Assembly: GCF_015694705.1 (NCBI RefSeq)
Contig: NZ_JADQDR010000011.1
Location: forward strand, 1 to 64,000
Source of the DNA: Pontibacter rufus
Lineage (GTDB): Bacteria; Bacteroidota; Bacteroidia; Cytophagales; Hymenobacteraceae
Reading direction: 5' to 3'
Length of the DNA: 64,000 nt
Position numbers and translations under genes: made by a program. This document shows, piece after piece, positions 10,307-18,540 of this stretch. The notes beneath the pieces were generated by a model. It was not told the DNA's origin, made no database searches, and saw only the letters and a program-made list of their open reading frames with translations. Position 1 is the first letter of the stretch. Every line of letters starts with the position of its first letter.

Positions 10307-10361
10307 GGTCAACGTTCTTGGCTAAACGACGGCGAGGGCCGCCGTATAGGTGTGGTTAGGC
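10307..10361. repeat. attC-like imperfect palindrome, site A
   Basis: The left end GGTCAAC and the right end GTTAGGC are related inverted boxes; the right one matches the integron R' consensus GTTRRRY. Between them lies a perfect hairpin, ACGGCG and CGCCGT around a short loop (10329-10345). It is the boundary between the AraC gene and the 109-residue membrane protein gene. This looks like an integron attC site or a related Bacteroidota cassette boundary. A plain hairpin terminator is the alternative. Confidence 0.55.
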
Positions 10362-10399
10362 AAAGGAAGTTTTTTAAACACTTATTGTAAAATCTTAAC

Positions 10400-10729
10400 T
10401 CATTTTAAAATTACAACCAGTATTGAACAGCCAACTAATATATATCCCCAATATTCCATGGGAATAAAAAATAATTCATGTTTGGTTTTAAAGGTAACTT
10501 CTTGCCTTGTTTCCTTGTCAATAAATACTTTTCCTTTCTTATTATTAAGACCTTTACCAATTAAACCTATTATTATTCCTGCTATAAAAAATGCTACTAC
10601 CATTGGACTTTTATTTTCCTGATAGTAGTTTTCATCATTAGTTAACGATTCGCTAATAAGTTCACCTGCAAGTAGTGCCAAAAATGTAATGACTACTACT
10701 AAAAAGCCCATGCCTCTCCAAATTATCAT
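10400..10729 (-). CDS. Hypothetical small membrane protein
   Basis: The 109-residue protein is not recognised. It has hydrophobic segments at about residues 5-24, 43-60 and 90-108, with a charged loop between the second and third (KGLNNKKGKVFIDKETRQEV). The gene is AT-rich and is framed exactly by two attC-like palindromes (10307-10361 and 10754-10820), so it looks like a single mobile cassette. No function can be given. Confidence 0.6.
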   Translation of the reverse strand: MIIWRGMGFLVVVITFLALLAGELISESLTNDENYYQENKSPMVVAFFIAGIIIGLIGKGLNNKKGKVFIDKETRQEVTFKTKHELFFIPMEYWGYILVGCSILVVILK

Positions 10730-10753
10730 ATATTTAAATTTTTACATTATTTT

Positions 10754-10820
10754 GCCTAGCGTGTTTGTGCATAATGTGGGCAAGGCGTAGCCAAAGCCTA
10801 AATTATGCACCTTGTTGGGC
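10754..10820. repeat. attC-like imperfect palindrome, site B
   Basis: The 67-base element starts with GCCTAGC and ends with GTTGGGC, which fits GTTRRRY. The inner arms GTGCATAAT and ATTATGCAC pair perfectly, with further pairing of GGGC/GCCT and GGC/GCC and a short central loop. Bases left unpaired on one arm are the pattern expected of attC extrahelical bases. It separates the 109-residue gene from the 137-residue gene. No integron integrase is seen nearby. Confidence 0.65.
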
Positions 10821-10919
10821 TATCGTTTTTATACTATTAACTTAGTGACTCATGCTACTCTAAATCCAAGGGAAGAAACTAATATGTTTCACATGCTTAT
10901 TTATATACTTATTTAATAA

Positions 10920-11333
10920 ATGACAAATAAGAGGCAAAGATTGAATGTACTCGACTTAATTGTCGCTTCTCTCTACCTATACTACCGAAAGAGAGAAGAC
11001 CATTTTTTAAGCGCATTTTGGGCTAAGTTTTTTTTGGCAGTCATTTCTACTTTATTCATCTTTATTCCAATTAGAGTCATAACTCAGTATGTTCCTATAA
11101 ATTGGCGATGTAGTTTTGATAATTACCTGTTGATAGTGTTTTTCCTCCTATGGGGAGTAATGTATGTAGTATTAAGTATAGGTACTATCCCGTTTTCGGA
11201 CCTTGCCAGTATTGAGCTACAAGCCGATGAGTACAAGAGAGGTAATCGTTTAGCTACCGTATGTACAGTAATATGTTTTGTTATGTTTGTGTCAGTAATG
11301 TTTTTAATGGGGCCAAGCGGAGCAGGATGCTGA
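10920..11333 (+). CDS. Hypothetical membrane protein
   Basis: The 137-residue protein is not recognised. It has three hydrophobic segments, at about residues 35-55, 66-90 and 113-132, and a short basic N-terminus (MTNKRQRLNVLDL). It is AT-rich, opposite in strand to the preceding cassette gene, and begins 100 bases after attC-like site B. The coding call rests on length, hydrophobic pattern and location; the exact start is uncertain. Confidence 0.5.
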   Translation: MTNKRQRLNVLDLIVASLYLYYRKREDHFLSAFWAKFFLAVISTLFIFIPIRVITQYVPINWRCSFDNYLLIVFFLLWGVMYVVLSIGTIPFSDLASIELQADEYKRGNRLATVCTVICFVMFVSVMFLMGPSGAGC

Positions 11334-11595
11334 CATAATTTAGGTAAGCCTCCAAATGCAAGTATAATAAAGTCAGCTCTTCTATCCGTTCGTCTCAAAA
11401 CCTCTCAGCAGTTATTTGTGCTGGAAATCAACACTCCTATGATTTGAATGCAGCCCAACTATAGTGTATAAGGAGGACTTCCGGTTATTGGCCCTTTAGC
11501 TGGAATGCTCGGAGCCTGCTTTTTACAATCTTCAGGCTTCAGATAAGGCACCGACTTCATGCTTGTATACATTTTAAAATAAAGATATAACACTT

Positions 11596-11865
11596 CTATA
11601 CATTATCAAGCGGGCTTACAATACTTTTCAGTCCGTGGCTGGTGATGTGGTTGTAAATCTATGTGGTCTTGCTGCTCTTGTACCCCAGCAGCGACTGAAT
11701 GTAGCGTAGGTTTATGCCCTGCTCCAACAAATGCGTGGCAAAGGAACGCCTGAGCGTGTGCGGCATGGCTTTTGTCTTTACCCCCATCTTTTCCTTACAG
11801 GCATGAAAGACGCTCCTTAGGCTCTCTGACGTGTACTGCCCGCCATGTCGTCCTTCAAAAGCCAC
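11596..11865 (-). pseudogene. Tyrosine recombinase C-terminal remnant with in-frame stop
   Basis: Homology begins abruptly at [13 protein letters not shown] and runs through [16 protein letters not shown] and [18 protein letters not shown] (11659-11661) then replaces the usual Glu. In the same frame the sequence continues IYNHITSHGLKSIVSPLDNV to a real stop at 11596. HxLR is kept and the nucleophile Tyr is present after the stop, but the usual GHKS His is Tyr. The N-terminal domain and first catalytic Arg are absent. This is the dead tail of a Bacteroidota XerC/D-like integrase, consistent with past mobility here. Confidence 0.8.
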
Positions 11866-11921
11866 TGCTTTGAGCACTGTAAGCAGGGCATGTATGGACG
11901 CGTGGGCCGGCGGCAGGGTAA

Positions 11922-12086
11922 AAGCAGCGGAGCGCCGGCACCCAGGTGGCTGTGTTGCTACACTACAGGCACTCCTATGTCTTTATTAAACTGAAAGCTA
12001 AGTTGTACCAAAGCTTTGCCATCCTACCCGAAGAGAAGGTGCTCGTCGTAAATCACCAGCCTTTTACGGAGCAGAAACTCAGGTAA
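11922..12086 (+). pseudogene. Unrecognised open fragment without a start codon
   Basis: A 54-codon open stretch reads [20 protein letters not shown] and then LPEEKVLVVNHQPFTEQKLR before a TAA at 12084. It has a protein-like composition but no initiation codon and no match that I recognise. It lies opposite the integrase remnant and in front of the gyrB terminator. It is probably the tail of a lost gene, but this is weakly supported. Confidence 0.3.
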
Positions 12087-15555: not shown

Positions 15556-15586
15556 GTATAGGCTTGTGTGCGTGCTTCGAAAGCCT

Positions 15587-15625
15587 GCAGGTATTATCAG
15601 CTACCTGGCAGTTGATAATACCTGC
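15587..15625. repeat. Perfect 13-bp inverted repeat, possible terminator
   Basis: GCAGGTATTATCA (15587-15599) and TGATAATACCTGC (15613-15625) are exact inverted copies around a 13-base loop, starting 31 bases after the DUF486 stop codon. No long T run follows directly, so it may be a terminator, a processed 3' end or a protein-binding dyad. Confidence 0.55.
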
Positions 15626-15678
15626 TTGCAGTAAAACTTTTTACAAATTTATAATTTAATTCTGCTATATTTCTATTA

Positions 15679-15756
15679 ATAATAATGCATCTCCAGCTTT
15701 TTGGAAGCCTCGGCTTCTCCCTACATAATGCAGAAAAGCGTAGGTTCACGTTAAGT
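15679..15756 (+). repeat. Candidate attC-like element, site D
   Basis: The stretch contains a perfect GAAGCC/GGCTTC hairpin (15704-15717). AATGCAT and ATAATGCAG occur on its two sides, and it ends in GTTAAGT, which fits the GTTRRRY core box. It lies 43 bases upstream of the Sll1717-type ATPase gene and mirrors the element downstream of that gene. The pairing of the outer arms is poor, so the call is tentative. Confidence 0.35.
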
Positions 15757-15799
15757 TATAAGCAATATTAAAAGACAAACCCGACAAATAAAATAAGAT

Positions 15800-17290
15800 A
15801 TGATAGACATCAAAGAATGGTTACCTGAATTTGAAGTTTCAGCAGAAACTGATACCGAACTTCAAGAATATTTTCTATTGACACCCGAATTAGAAAAAAT
15901 AATAAACAGTAAATATTGGTTGCTTCTAGGCAGAAAAGGAACGGGAAAGACGGCAATTTATAAATATCTGGAAAAATCAAATCCCTCAACGATAAATAGC
16001 AATATTGTTGTGTCGTTAAATTTCAAAGACTATCCATGGCCAGCCCATAAGTTATATAAAGAATCTATTGCAGGTGAGTTAAGTGCATATCAAAAAAGCT
16101 GGCGTTTTTTATTTTTTGTAAAACTTATCTCACGTTTAGTTGAAGTTAAAGAAAACAATTCTGAAAGTCTTTCCAAAGAATTAAAGTGGGCAAAAAAATA
16201 CATTGAAAAAGTTTTCGGAAATCCTGACCCAAGTATTATGGAAGTGTTATTTTCAAAACTTGCTAGGATTAAAAAACTTGCTGGTCCAGGAATGGAACTT
16301 GATGAAACAAGTTTCAATGTAGGTGAGGTTTCATTTGACGATGTTGCTGATAATAAAGAACTACAAAGCACATTAAGGTCAAACGCTTTTACTCTGCTGT
16401 CATTTTTCGAGACAATATTTAAAAATAATGTAGGAGACAAGAAGTTCCTAATCATACTTGACCAATTGGACGAAAATTGGTTAAATGGTGAAATAGATGA
16501 ATATAGCAAAGTCTTAATCAACTTAATAAATGTTTGTAGAAATATTGGAATCGATGACACCCTGAAAAAGAATCTCAAAGTAATCCCATTTTTAAGGACA
16601 GATATTTATGAAACTTTACGATTCAACGACAAGAACAAATTGTATCAAGACAGTGCAATTGTACTTGCATGGGACAATGATTCTTTAGACACAATGTTCT
16701 TAGAACGAGTTAAAAAATACAAACCCGAAGAAGTTGAGCTTGAATTAAACAAAAAATGTGATTCTTTATTTGAAGCATCTTATGTTAGACAAGGGACACC
16801 ACCATTTAAATATATTACGAGGCGTTCGTTCTTCAGACCTAGAGATGTTATTATTTACTTTAATAACATTAGAAAAAAGCATACGCCTAACAAAACAGGA
16901 CTTTATACAACAACGGAATTATATGACGCAGCAGTTGATGCATCAGTTAGTGTTTACAATGAAATAATTGATGAATGGTCTAATCAGTTTCCTGATATTG
17001 AAAAGTTATTTTCAGTATTACAGATAATTCAAGTAGAAACATTTACTTATTCAGAATTTGAGAATAAATATAAATTAGAGTTTCCTGATGCGACAGAAGG
17101 CAATTTGCGTAAGCACATCAATTTTCTGTTTGACAATTCAATAATAGGACAGAAAAAACAAGGACGTTGGGAATATCTATCAAGTCTACCAAATTTAAAA
17201 ATGAATATTGAAAAACCATTTAGAACGCATCAATCATTGAAATATCGTTTGCAACTGACTGAAAGTAGACCGGGACAAAATGACGAATGA
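15800..17290 (+). CDS. P-loop ATPase of the Sll1717 family
   Basis: The 496-residue protein opens with a short helical region and a Walker A loop GRKGTGKT at residues 44-51. Walker B is KFLIILDQLDENW at about 215-227. A later region, RRSFFRPRDVIIYFNNIRKK, resembles the arginine-containing end of KAP/STAND-like NTPase cores, and a winged-helix-like C-terminus follows. No transmembrane segment is visible. The family is widespread but uncharacterised, and members often occur in accessory DNA, so a role in phage defence or stress sensing is a hypothesis. The gene is strikingly AT-rich, stands alone, and lies between attC-like elements. Confidence 0.75.
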   Translation: MIDIKEWLPEFEVSAETDTELQEYFLLTPELEKIINSKYWLLLGRKGTGKTAIYKYLEKSNPSTINSNIVVSLNFKDYPWPAHKLYKESIAGELSAYQKSWRFLFFVKLISRLVEVKENNSESLSKELKWAKKYIEKVFGNPDPSIMEVLFSKLARIKKLAGPGMELDETSFNVGEVSFDDVADNKELQSTLRSNAFTLLSFFETIFKNNVGDKKFLIILDQLDENWLNGEIDEYSKVLINLINVCRNIGIDDTLKKNLKVIPFLRTDIYETLRFNDKNKLYQDSAIVLAWDNDSLDTMFLERVKKYKPEEVELELNKKCDSLFEASYVRQGTPPFKYITRRSFFRPRDVIIYFNNIRKKHTPNKTGLYTTTELYDAAVDASVSVYNEIIDEWSNQFPDIEKLFSVLQIIQVETFTYSEFENKYKLEFPDATEGNLRKHINFLFDNSIIGQKKQGRWEYLSSLPNLKMNIEKPFRTHQSLKYRLQLTESRPGQNDE

Positions 17291-17305
17291 AAGAACTACT
17301 GCTCA

Positions 17306-17434
17306 TGACAGGCGTTTGGCAAAAAAGCGAGTTCAGTGCTTAAATGAAGCTTTGTGCTTCGTATCAAGTTCAGTGCTGGCAGAAAGTTTAGTGCTTCGAA
17401 ATCCACTTCTTCGCCAAGCGCCAAACTGTTAGCG
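17306..17434 (+). repeat. attC-like element with four 18-bp tandem repeats, site C
   Basis: The outer arms (TGACAGGCGTTTGGC at the left and GCCAAACTGTTA at the right) are related inverted sequences, ending in GTTAGCG. The middle holds four imperfect units of 18-19 bases starting at 17331, 17349, 17368 and 17386: GTTCAGTGCT, GCTTTGTGCT, GTTCAGTGCT, GTTTAGTGCT, each followed by a variable tail. It begins 16 bases after the ATPase stop codon, where an integron cassette would carry its attC site. The repeats are too short and have no spacers for a CRISPR array. Confidence 0.55.
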
Positions 17435-17489
17435 GCAGCCCTAAAAGATGCTGCCAAACCGACAATATCTTCTGACCAACATTTTCCGG

Positions 17490-18269
17490 CTACTCCAAGG
17501 CTAAACGAATTGCCTGTTCAACCGGAGCATAGCCGGCACCCGAATCTGCAATGGTTAATTCATCCCGAAGCAACAAAGGAGGCTGCGCCATAAATTTAGG
17601 CGTGCTACCTTTGTGGGCCTGGGCTGCATGCACCAGAAAAGGATGACACAAGTAAACTGTACCGGCCTTACCGGTTGCATAAACTTCTTCGCGAGCAGGA
17701 AGTTCATGCAGCTTACTTGCCAGCGCCATAAAAGAAAGACCGGCATCACCCTCTTTATACAAGAGCTTTGCAACATCGATGTGTGATTTCTTGTAAATAA
17801 CTGTGGGGGCATCATTTTCACTGACATCTGAATACAAAACCAACATCAACAAGGCTCTGCCTTTTGATTTGACGTTAACACGCCATTCGAAATAATTGGC
17901 AGGGTCATGGCCCGGGAAACTTGCATCGACATGTTTCCCGGTGTCGTTTGGTTGCTGTCGGGATGGAAATCTAACGGGAAAGGTGCCCACACTTTGGCAA
18001 GGCATCCATTTACCAGCACCAATCAACTGATCAAAAGCTGCATGTAATTTTGGTGTATTCACTGAATCTGTAAAGGAGCGTTGCGTGTACATTCCCAGGC
18101 GAATGACAGGCTCCGTCCACGAACCAGGATCTGTTCTTTCGAAGGGAATGTCTTTCCATAAAATATCCACAACCTCTTCAGCCATTTGTAAAGGAAAAGC
18201 ATTATCAATGCGGATAAAACCATCGGCAATAAACTGCTCAATATCTTTTTTACTTAATCTGCCTGCCAT
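17490..18269 (-). CDS. Phytanoyl-CoA dioxygenase (PhyH) family protein
   Basis: The 259-residue protein is an Fe(II)/2-oxoglutarate dioxygenase of the PhyH group. The N-terminus LSKKDIEQFIADGFIRIDNA is the typical opening. The iron ligands are His and Asp in GKHVDASFPG, and the distal His lies in HPFLVHAAQAHKG. The substrate is unknown; members hydroxylate small molecules or natural-product intermediates. It is a single gene with normal base composition, divergent from the SCO operon. Confidence 0.85.
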   Translation of the reverse strand: MAGRLSKKDIEQFIADGFIRIDNAFPLQMAEEVVDILWKDIPFERTDPGSWTEPVIRLGMYTQRSFTDSVNTPKLHAAFDQLIGAGKWMPCQSVGTFPVRFPSRQQPNDTGKHVDASFPGHDPANYFEWRVNVKSKGRALLMLVLYSDVSENDAPTVIYKKSHIDVAKLLYKEGDAGLSFMALASKLHELPAREEVYATGKAGTVYLCHPFLVHAAQAHKGSTPKFMAQPPLLLRDELTIADSGAGYAPVEQAIRLALE

Positions 18270-18540
18270 AATATTCAGGTTTTTAGACTATGAAGCAAAG
18301 CGAACCTACATCGGGCAACATGACTTTATTCAATAAACAAATTGACCATACCTGGACAATAACAGAGAAGGAATCAGAAAAGATTAGTAAGCCACGGCTC
18401 AGGAGCTAAGCCCGGAAGGAATAGTACAGCCTTACCGTCATTTTAACAGCACAAATATAAAATAATCTTCAAACTGTCAATAAGTATAAGCAGTCCCTCA
18501 TAAACTTGCACTTGCCAACCTGCGGCTATACCTTTGCAGT

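Follow-up and report, generated by a model that had tools for sequence, protein, structure and literature searches.

A probable integron-type cassette carrying an Sll1717-family ATPase in Pontibacter rufus and a candidate integron class of the Bacteroidota

The window, which is the whole 64,000-nucleotide stretch of Pontibacter rufus DNA analysed here (contig NZ_JADQDR010000011.1, positions 1 to 64,000), carries a solitary gene for an ATPase of the Sll1717 family. The gene is followed directly, and in the same orientation, by an attC-type site of 135 nt: its stop codon ends at 17290 and the R'' box of the site begins at 17300. The open reading frame (ORF) scores 245 bits against the NCBIfam model NF047389 (ATPase, Sll1717 family), whose curated cut-off is 75, and is therefore a member of that family; it also matches phrog_13260 with 135 bits. 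Its G+C content is 0.317, compared with 0.485 for the window. We consider it probable (about 0.78) that gene and site together form a single integron-type cassette, standing outside an array and moved by its folded attC-type site, with an ORC/Cdc6-like ATPase as cargo. The original prediction had described an AT-rich, Sll1717-type ATPase gene in a mobile cassette with the order gene then attC. The family assignment and the base composition hold, and the cassette organization is supported by the right-hand site and its orientation.

Sites of this type were searched for with three covariance models, the E-values of which are rough. R1 was trained on 14 long-site copies from 12 genus genomes, the window's included, and R2 on 18 of 19 extracted short sites of about 66 nt; R3 is the long-site model with the window copy left out of training. 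R3 recovers the window site unaided by its own copy (117.4 bits, E 1.1e-26), with a span of 17300/17301-17435. A blastn search with 17291-17445 (E up to 0.1) matched 18 of the 50 genus genomes, counting the own one, the closest non-self match reaching 74% over 132 bp (E 9.4e-15); within its own genome alone, the query found itself and nothing better than E 0.24. At the loci that were read, the better matches stand behind differing genes and have the layout stop codon, AAC box, arm, about 100 nt, opposite arm and GTT box, while several weak matches (L065-L067 among them) resemble chance. In an alignment of the 14 copies, 130-139 nt in length, 93.9% of cells are paired and compensatory changes are present. 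The covariation score is 0.547, compared with 0.025-0.092 in slid controls, and on three measures none of 500 shuffles reaches the observed value (16 and 18 do so on the other two). By this covariation the arms of the long-site family are kept by pairing rather than by sequence. The right-hand attC that had been proposed at 17306-17434 is therefore real, given the R3 score, the covarying arms and the dispersed homologues.

The left boundary differs from the one originally proposed. The first ten bases of the cassette agree by eye at 8 of 10 positions with the reverse complement of its own R'' box (17300-17309), so that the GTT at 15755 would mark the cassette start and the cassette would extend over 15756-17428. 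In Flavobacterium sp. 7A (L011), which holds an 84% relative of the ATPase, start and R'' boxes are complementary at 10 of 10 positions (by eye); R3 also detects two sites in this genome, 2.4-3.6 kb from the ATPase relative. At 15679-15756, where the original prediction had a second attC, neither R1 nor R2 gives a match with filters off. The nearest R1 scores are at chance level (E 2.4 and 3.1, within 15574-15669), and the stretch 15679-15770 folds no better than shuffles (z -0.32). This candidate was rejected, and the left side of the cassette looks like a plain insertion point. By eye, L010 1700-1800, L011 7480-7560 and window 17291-17435 combine near-identical ATPase genes and a similar R'' box region with unlike hairpins, so that attC hairpins seem to have been exchanged.

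The ATPase gene is single-copy in its own genome, where its sole match is itself. Compared with the 90% relative in a Prolixibacteraceae genome (L010), the window gene has a dN of 0.046 and a dS of 0.92, so it appears to be maintained, under strong purifying selection as judged from these rates. A DUF486 gene to the left of the cassette is present in 24 other genus genomes (40 searched). When the window was compared by blastn with 1.5 kb on each side of DUF486 in these 24 relatives, no match fell within 15562-18500, while 22 of the 24 gave a match at the end of gyrB, 11 at the lipoprotein gene and 21 in the DNA to the right of 18500; gyrB and lipoprotein gene are names that we assume for these flanks. 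An accessory PhyH-like gene beside the cassette (17490-18269, minus strand) lies within the same variable stretch and is matched in 1 of 28 other relatives. An Rfam scan of the window from 10 to 25 kb returned nothing at E<=1.

Sites of both lengths are common in the genus. At E<=0.01, R1 detects long-type sites in 43 of 50 genus genomes (12 of them training donors), with 10 sites in the P. rufus genome itself; opposite-strand matches at strong sites (L103, L128, L129, L132, L133) reflect the symmetry of the hairpin and are excluded from the counts. In the own genome, contig C13 (L104) and the end of contig C19 (L108) consist of small genes arrayed on one strand, and short sites of about 66 nt, ending in AAC...GTT, stand between these genes. 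The C19 array is headed by a tyrosine recombinase that is itself cut by the contig end. R1 and R2 matches, added by hand across the fetched stretches with training copies included, come to 56 in this genome. For the 18 short sites, three of five covariation measures beat all 500 shuffles; the other two do not, 131 and 393 of 500 shuffles reaching them. In 12 genus loci (10 of 52 recombinase loci, chosen as rich in sites, together with L104 and L108), 81 of 97 cassettes begin with the exact complement of their own R'' at four bases beyond the core, compared with a mean of 3.9 and a maximum of 13 in shuffles. The genes of the own-genome arrays (L104 1-10525 and L108 5001-14195) are small and same-strand and, by eye, many are lipoprotein-like.

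The 52 recombinase loci were picked out in the genus by the IntI model (E<=1e-30), with about 7 kb fetched on each side where contigs allowed, giving 246 kb downstream and 350 kb upstream. R2 at E<=0.05 finds 166 short sites around these genes, all of them downstream and on the same strand, with none upstream and none on the opposite strand. At least one short site is present at 40 of the 52 loci; 11 of the remaining 12 have less than 1.7 kb of downstream sequence left, and the twelfth is L189. Loci L122-L127 had been picked for a recombinase close to a site, while the strand test used all recombinase places instead. Weak R3 matches also occur near recombinase loci (E 0.0065-0.046; L196, L177, L198), at least one of them (L177) upstream of the recombinase. 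The stretch L127 11275-15845 holds an opposite-strand short-site array and one plus-strand long site, and is an exception to the strand rule.

The start of the arrays has a fixed position in most loci. A total of 34 loci entered this comparison, four of which were dropped for want of a recombinase stop; eight of the 40 site-bearing loci were omitted (L161, L169, L175, L178, L188, L190, L195, L197). In 22 of the 30 testable loci, the window included, the first cassette starts 133-148 bp after the recombinase stop. The expected heptamer is missing in five of the 30, and in three it is found only at 647-698 bp. By eye, the stretch preceding the first cassette resembles a conserved inverted repeat. 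Recombinase, attI and attC array thus stand together as an integron platform in the genus, whereas in the window the recombinase is a remnant. The order of the sites, the attI spacing and the complementarity of cassette start and R'' are as expected for the attI, attC sites and cassettes of an integron.

The array recombinase is related to IntI and differs from it. That of L126 has the IntI model TIGR02249 as its best NCBIfam match (208.9 bits, cut-off 265), followed by XerA (200.8) and XerD (190); the L244 and L250 enzymes, from other genomes of the phylum, score 194.8 and 216 bits against TIGR02249 and also fall short. None of the 50 genus genomes has a recombinase above this cut-off. A canonical IntI in the own genome was likewise rejected, since the partial matches there, which include the array recombinase and the window remnant, all stay below it. 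Against NF040815 (cut-off 220), L126 (200.8) and L244 (192) score below and L250 (237.4) above. Aligned with VchIntIA (2a3v), the L126 recombinase jumps from 387 to 411 where VchIntIA runs from 181 to 248, that is, 23 aa versus 66 aa; for L250 the gap is 21 aa versus 64 aa. We take this gap to be the place of the IntI-specific additional domain, which on this alignment appears to be missing from both enzymes. Two papers describe the insertion as essential for integron function (PMC8138268, PMC9668308).

By eye, the tyrosine-recombinase motifs are present in the array recombinase. N-termini were read in part of the 52 recombinase places, and each of the six full-length proteins (about 480 aa) has some 200 extra N-terminal residues, a region without a Pfam match in the two copies scanned. 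Across L122-L127 and L244 this extra region looks by eye like two or one repeat copies, and it is shorter in L244.

Long sites extend far beyond the genus. At E<=0.001, R3 finds them in 185 of 395 phylum genomes, among them the own genome, representing 103 of 171 genera; up to eight candidates were scored per genome, so that per-genome counts are lower bounds. No same-genus genome is listed in this set, and apart from the own genome none is closely related to the donors of the training copies. The phylum is identified as Bacteroidota through G204, a genome of the same class as the window's, in whose locus 2.5 kb are identical to the Flavobacterium sp. 7A record. In 20 stretches from 14 other genomes, all 123 long sites share the strand of their stretch (L238 and L241 hold one site only); these stretches were selected for neighbouring R3 matches and are an unfair sample of site density. 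In the arrays of the same 14 genomes, 72 of 98 testable cassettes are self-complementary (5 of 103 neighbouring pairs were dropped), compared with a mean of 5.4 and a maximum of 14 in shuffles. This self-complementarity, together with the strand coherence, led us to reject a terminator or repetitive extragenic palindrome (REP) reading for the site family. R2 finds short sites in the own genome and in a single further one of the 395; with 13 candidates scored per genome, absence elsewhere is weak evidence.

Some cassettes of these arrays carry likely defence genes. Among 75 ORFs from 84 cassette-like intervals, the best 25 of 73 matching Pfam families include an Eco47II-type restriction enzyme, a cytosine methylase, a CBASS-type 4TM effector, a GmrSD domain, two AIPR proteins and a PemK-type toxin. 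The best 25 of 156 PADLOC families include AbiU (two), mad2 (two), SduA and HEC-06.

A second integron lies closer to hand. The region 10307-11974 of the window is, by its sequence, a decayed integron with a recombinase remnant, an attI-like site, two short attC sites and two putative cassettes (Table 1). A further 23-aa scrap of recombinase at 11906-11974 is weak (E 0.033). The solitary ATPase cassette begins about 3.8 kb from this integron, past the gyrB gene, and has the opposite orientation.

Table 1 Features of the window that bear on the cassette and the decayed integron
Feature	Positions	Strand	Basis or remark
Sll1717-family AAA+ ATPase, 496 aa, cassette cargo	15800-17290	+	NF047389 and phrog_13260 matches; dN/dS data
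Long (135-nt) attC-type site; R'' 17300-17309, cut GTT 17428	17300-17435	+	R3, covariation, dispersed homologues
Putative cassette start: cut GTT and half-site	15755-15764	+	8/10 complementary to own R'' box (by eye)
Whole putative cassette, 1673 bp	15756-17428	+	Inferred from the two GTT cut points
Left attC of the original prediction, unsupported	15679-15756		No R1/R2 match; fold z -0.32
Decayed C-terminal end of array recombinase, in-frame TAG	11599-11871	-	tblastn 67% over 91 aa, E 4e-33
attI-like site: 30-nt stretch and cut GTT 11459	11457-11489	-	136 bp after recombinase stop
Short attC, cassette 1 of decayed integron	10754-10820	-	R2 55.1 bits, E 6.8e-11, filters off
109-aa ORF, cargo of cassette 2 of decayed integron	10400-10729	-	Only Pfam match falls below its cut-off
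Second short attC of decayed integron	10307-10361	-	R2 29.2 bits, E 1.1e-4, filters off

These data are consistent with the following mechanism. The attC-type site would fold in vivo on one strand into a long hairpin, at which a tyrosine recombinase would cut G/TT and excise the cassette as a circle. The circle may then insert at attI, at another attC or at a secondary GTT. Within the genus the acting enzyme is most likely the recombinase of about 480 aa that heads the arrays. The ATPase cassette would have been inserted outside an array at a secondary GTT between the DUF486 gene and the PhyH-like gene.

The role of the cargo can be approached through its relatives. Six close homologues (65-90%) are found in other families and phyla, so that the gene evidently travels, and eight further relatives (61-67%) are found in IMG/VR contigs. 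In L152 the relative follows a Ren-like exclusion gene (phrog_142), with the same neighbours in L151 and L153 by printed sequence; in L149 and L154 it stands in, or at the end of, the tail genes, and in L148 a phage primase lies 2 kb away. For these phage contexts we assumed the gene positions of lambda and P2. A Patescibacteria homologue (67%) has a PD-T7-5-like neighbour (68.7 bits), a 31% relative on an F-type plasmid is near pifC and a P-loop NTPase, a 25% homologue lies about 2.3 kb from VapBC, and in a Lactococcus phage a distant relative comes directly after the lysin. In genome G216 (L050), direct repeats with 31 identical bases, at a spacing of 1648 bp, enclose an 85% homologue; by eye, this arrangement seems to sit where a coding sequence ends. 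The ATPase is not tied to one vehicle, occurring in integron cassettes and in other settings. In the contexts examined, homologues are not found mainly beside housekeeping genes and the cassette signal is present, as the original prediction had supposed.

The predicted structure suggests an AAA+ ATPase of the ORC/Cdc6 type. Searches with the core of the AlphaFold model place Cdc6/ORC first, with four matches at E<=0.001 and Z-scores of 9-11 (up to 10.9), and BrxC is found by Foldseek with E 2.5e-3. The Pfam model PF24389 (ORC-CDC6-like) gives 17.6 bits, below its gathering score of 27, which indicates likeness of fold rather than membership. The C-terminal end (445-496), where STAND sensor repeats would be looked for, has pLDDT values below 50. 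A sequence search of the PDB returned nothing at E<=1, and a fold search of BFVD nothing at E<=0.001. Given the low confidence of the model, the cargo may be described as an ORC/Cdc6-like AAA+ ATPase. From its neighbours we lean slightly towards a single-gene phage-exclusion ATPase; it would sense an infecting phage, assemble on ATP or DNA and then block replication or stop the host, a sequence of steps that we hold to be only a little better than an even bet.

Several observations weigh against the reading of a mobile cassette that belongs to a phylum-wide integron system and carries a defence gene. Folded alone as DNA, the window copy of the site does not exceed shuffles in stability (z 0.18), so that the evidence for the site rests on comparison. 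Its R'' box is imperfect, with GAC where the remaining 13 copies have AAC; together with the 8 of 10 match to the cassette start, this suggests that the window copy may be ageing. The close relatives at L010 and L011 bear hairpins other than the window's (by eye), R3 finds no site at the G216 relative, and an empty insertion site was not found, the compared relatives being without the entire stretch 15562-18500. At L127 (G002; a wider view of the L189 locus), six opposite-strand sites begin about 6.7 kb from the recombinase, just past the counted stretch. Elsewhere in the phylum, a recombinase is recognizable by motif near the array head in only 3 of the 20 stretches (L236, partial; L244; L250), all three below the IntI cut-off, and at L250 16819-17775 (plus strand) it is divergent from the long-site array, in contrast to the genus, where recombinase and array read the same way. 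The extra N-terminal region, used as a query, is found in 2 of 395 phylum genomes, namely the own (a 65-residue fragment) and one weak match, which suggests that long-site arrays elsewhere use other recombinases. As for the cargo, the mean pLDDT of its model is 63, and the unrelated AAA+ proteins TnsC and Dark reach a Z-score of 9.1, level with RdrA (9.1). The ATPase itself matches 0 families of PADLOC-DB 2.0.0 at E<=1. In a PADLOC scan of 10 neighbour proteins, six match nothing and three only regulator-type models, and a relative on a Polaromonas plasmid is adjoined by hypothetical genes with no annotated defence neighbour.

The last three of these points, along with the first rank of Cdc6/ORC among the fold matches and the annotation of some plasmid relatives as 'DNA repair protein', would fit a genuine cassette whose ATPase serves DNA repair, replication control or mobile-element maintenance. 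We regard this as a serious but less probable explanation, since relatives stand beside Ren-like, PifC, lysin and PD-T7-5-like genes and defence genes are present among the sister cassettes. The defence role put forward by the original prediction is plausible, with uneven support from context: the Ren-like, tail, PD-T7-5-like, pifC and lysin contexts speak for it, while other contexts hold no annotated defence genes and no PADLOC family matches the ATPase. The lack in the array recombinase of an insertion that has been called essential raises the possibility that an occasionally acquired canonical IntI moves the genus cassettes and that the recombinase at the array head is a passenger. This is unlikely, as no genus genome has a recombinase over the IntI cut-off; arrays are headed by this recombinase at 40 of the 52 loci, and 22 of the 30 loci tested have attI at a fixed distance.

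Another vehicle, such as an IS91-like transposon or a prophage, could have moved the ATPase gene, the attC beside it being incidental. L011 has a transposase, which we take to be IS91-like, and a recombinase within 2.3 kb, and the G216 homologue lies between its direct repeats. We consider this improbable for the window, where gene and attC are oriented as in a cassette with 9 bases between them and the ORF list from 10 to 24 kb shows no transposase beside it; in L011 itself, start and R'' boxes are exactly complementary (by eye). Least probable by far is a transcription terminator or dispersed REP-like repeat. The unremarkable fold of the lone window copy would suit it, as would the two neighbouring gene ends that both face the hairpin, but neither the length of 135 nt nor the covarying arms, the AAC...GTT ends, the self-complementarity and the strand coherence of the family would be expected of such an element.

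The preferred reading of an integron-type cassette leads to a larger result than its cargo, namely the integron class behind it. The site family and its covariation, the arrays with their strand coherence and self-complementarity, the position of attI and the missing insertion are established computationally. On balance they make it reasonably likely that the Bacteroidota own a phylum-wide integron class, with 135-nt sites (in the genus also 66-nt sites), a fixed attI and recombinases that act on folded attC sites without the IntI-specific domain; the cassettes of this class would spread single-gene phage defence, with the Sll1717 ATPase as one undescribed example. Should these sites prove to be substrates of the array recombinases, the IntI-specific domain could no longer be regarded as a requirement for attC recombination. 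The arrays also bring together small accessory genes; many of these have no known function, and some are defence genes. The Sll1717 ATPase, as a single gene, offers a compact candidate for phage defence.

In the open PMC literature (bioRxiv and most subscription papers lie outside this scope), we found no mention of 'Sll1717' or account of the function of this family, and among the titles and opening abstracts listed none describes a Bacteroidota integron class of this kind; the class appears new within the literature searched and may be in print elsewhere. Bacteroidota are named among the integron-bearing phyla (PMC8618304, PMC9668308), and IntegronFinder 2 reports one complete integron in Bacteroidetes proper, that of Salinibacter ruber (PMC9024848). 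Our reading, if the array recombinases do act on these sites, would place integrons on a large scale in a phylum for which few have been reported.

Compared with known systems, the cargo is a member by score of NF047389 ATPase_Sll1717 / phrog_13260 and shares its AAA+ core fold with RdrA (RADAR), BrxC (BREX) and ORC/Cdc6. It differs from these in having 8-15% identity to them and no partner gene inside the cassette, and on a low-confidence model other AAA+ proteins score alike. With IntI (TIGR02249; VchIntIA 2a3v) the array recombinase shares the tyrosine-recombinase motifs and its best NCBIfam match; unlike IntI, it stays below the 265-bit cut-off, is without the IntI-specific insertion and has the N-terminal region of about 200 aa. 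The XerA-type family NF040815 ('site-specific tyrosine recombinase/integron integrase') is the second-best match of the genus recombinase and the best match of L250's, although the genus recombinase and that of L244 fall below its cut-off. To our knowledge, association with attC arrays is not part of the NF040815 XerA family.

The element itself shares with integron cassettes and attC sites the combination of a gene with a folded site, the R''/R' boxes AAC...GTT and arms whose pairing is conserved. Rows of small genes on one strand, an attI beside the recombinase and solitary cassettes at secondary sites are features in common with sedentary chromosomal integrons, and long attC sites are known, for example the Vibrio repeats. 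In contrast to classical integrons, the genus recombinase reads in the same direction as its array, while that of L250 reads away, as in classical ones. Unlike known integrons, a single 135-nt site type is present in 185 of 395 genomes of the phylum.

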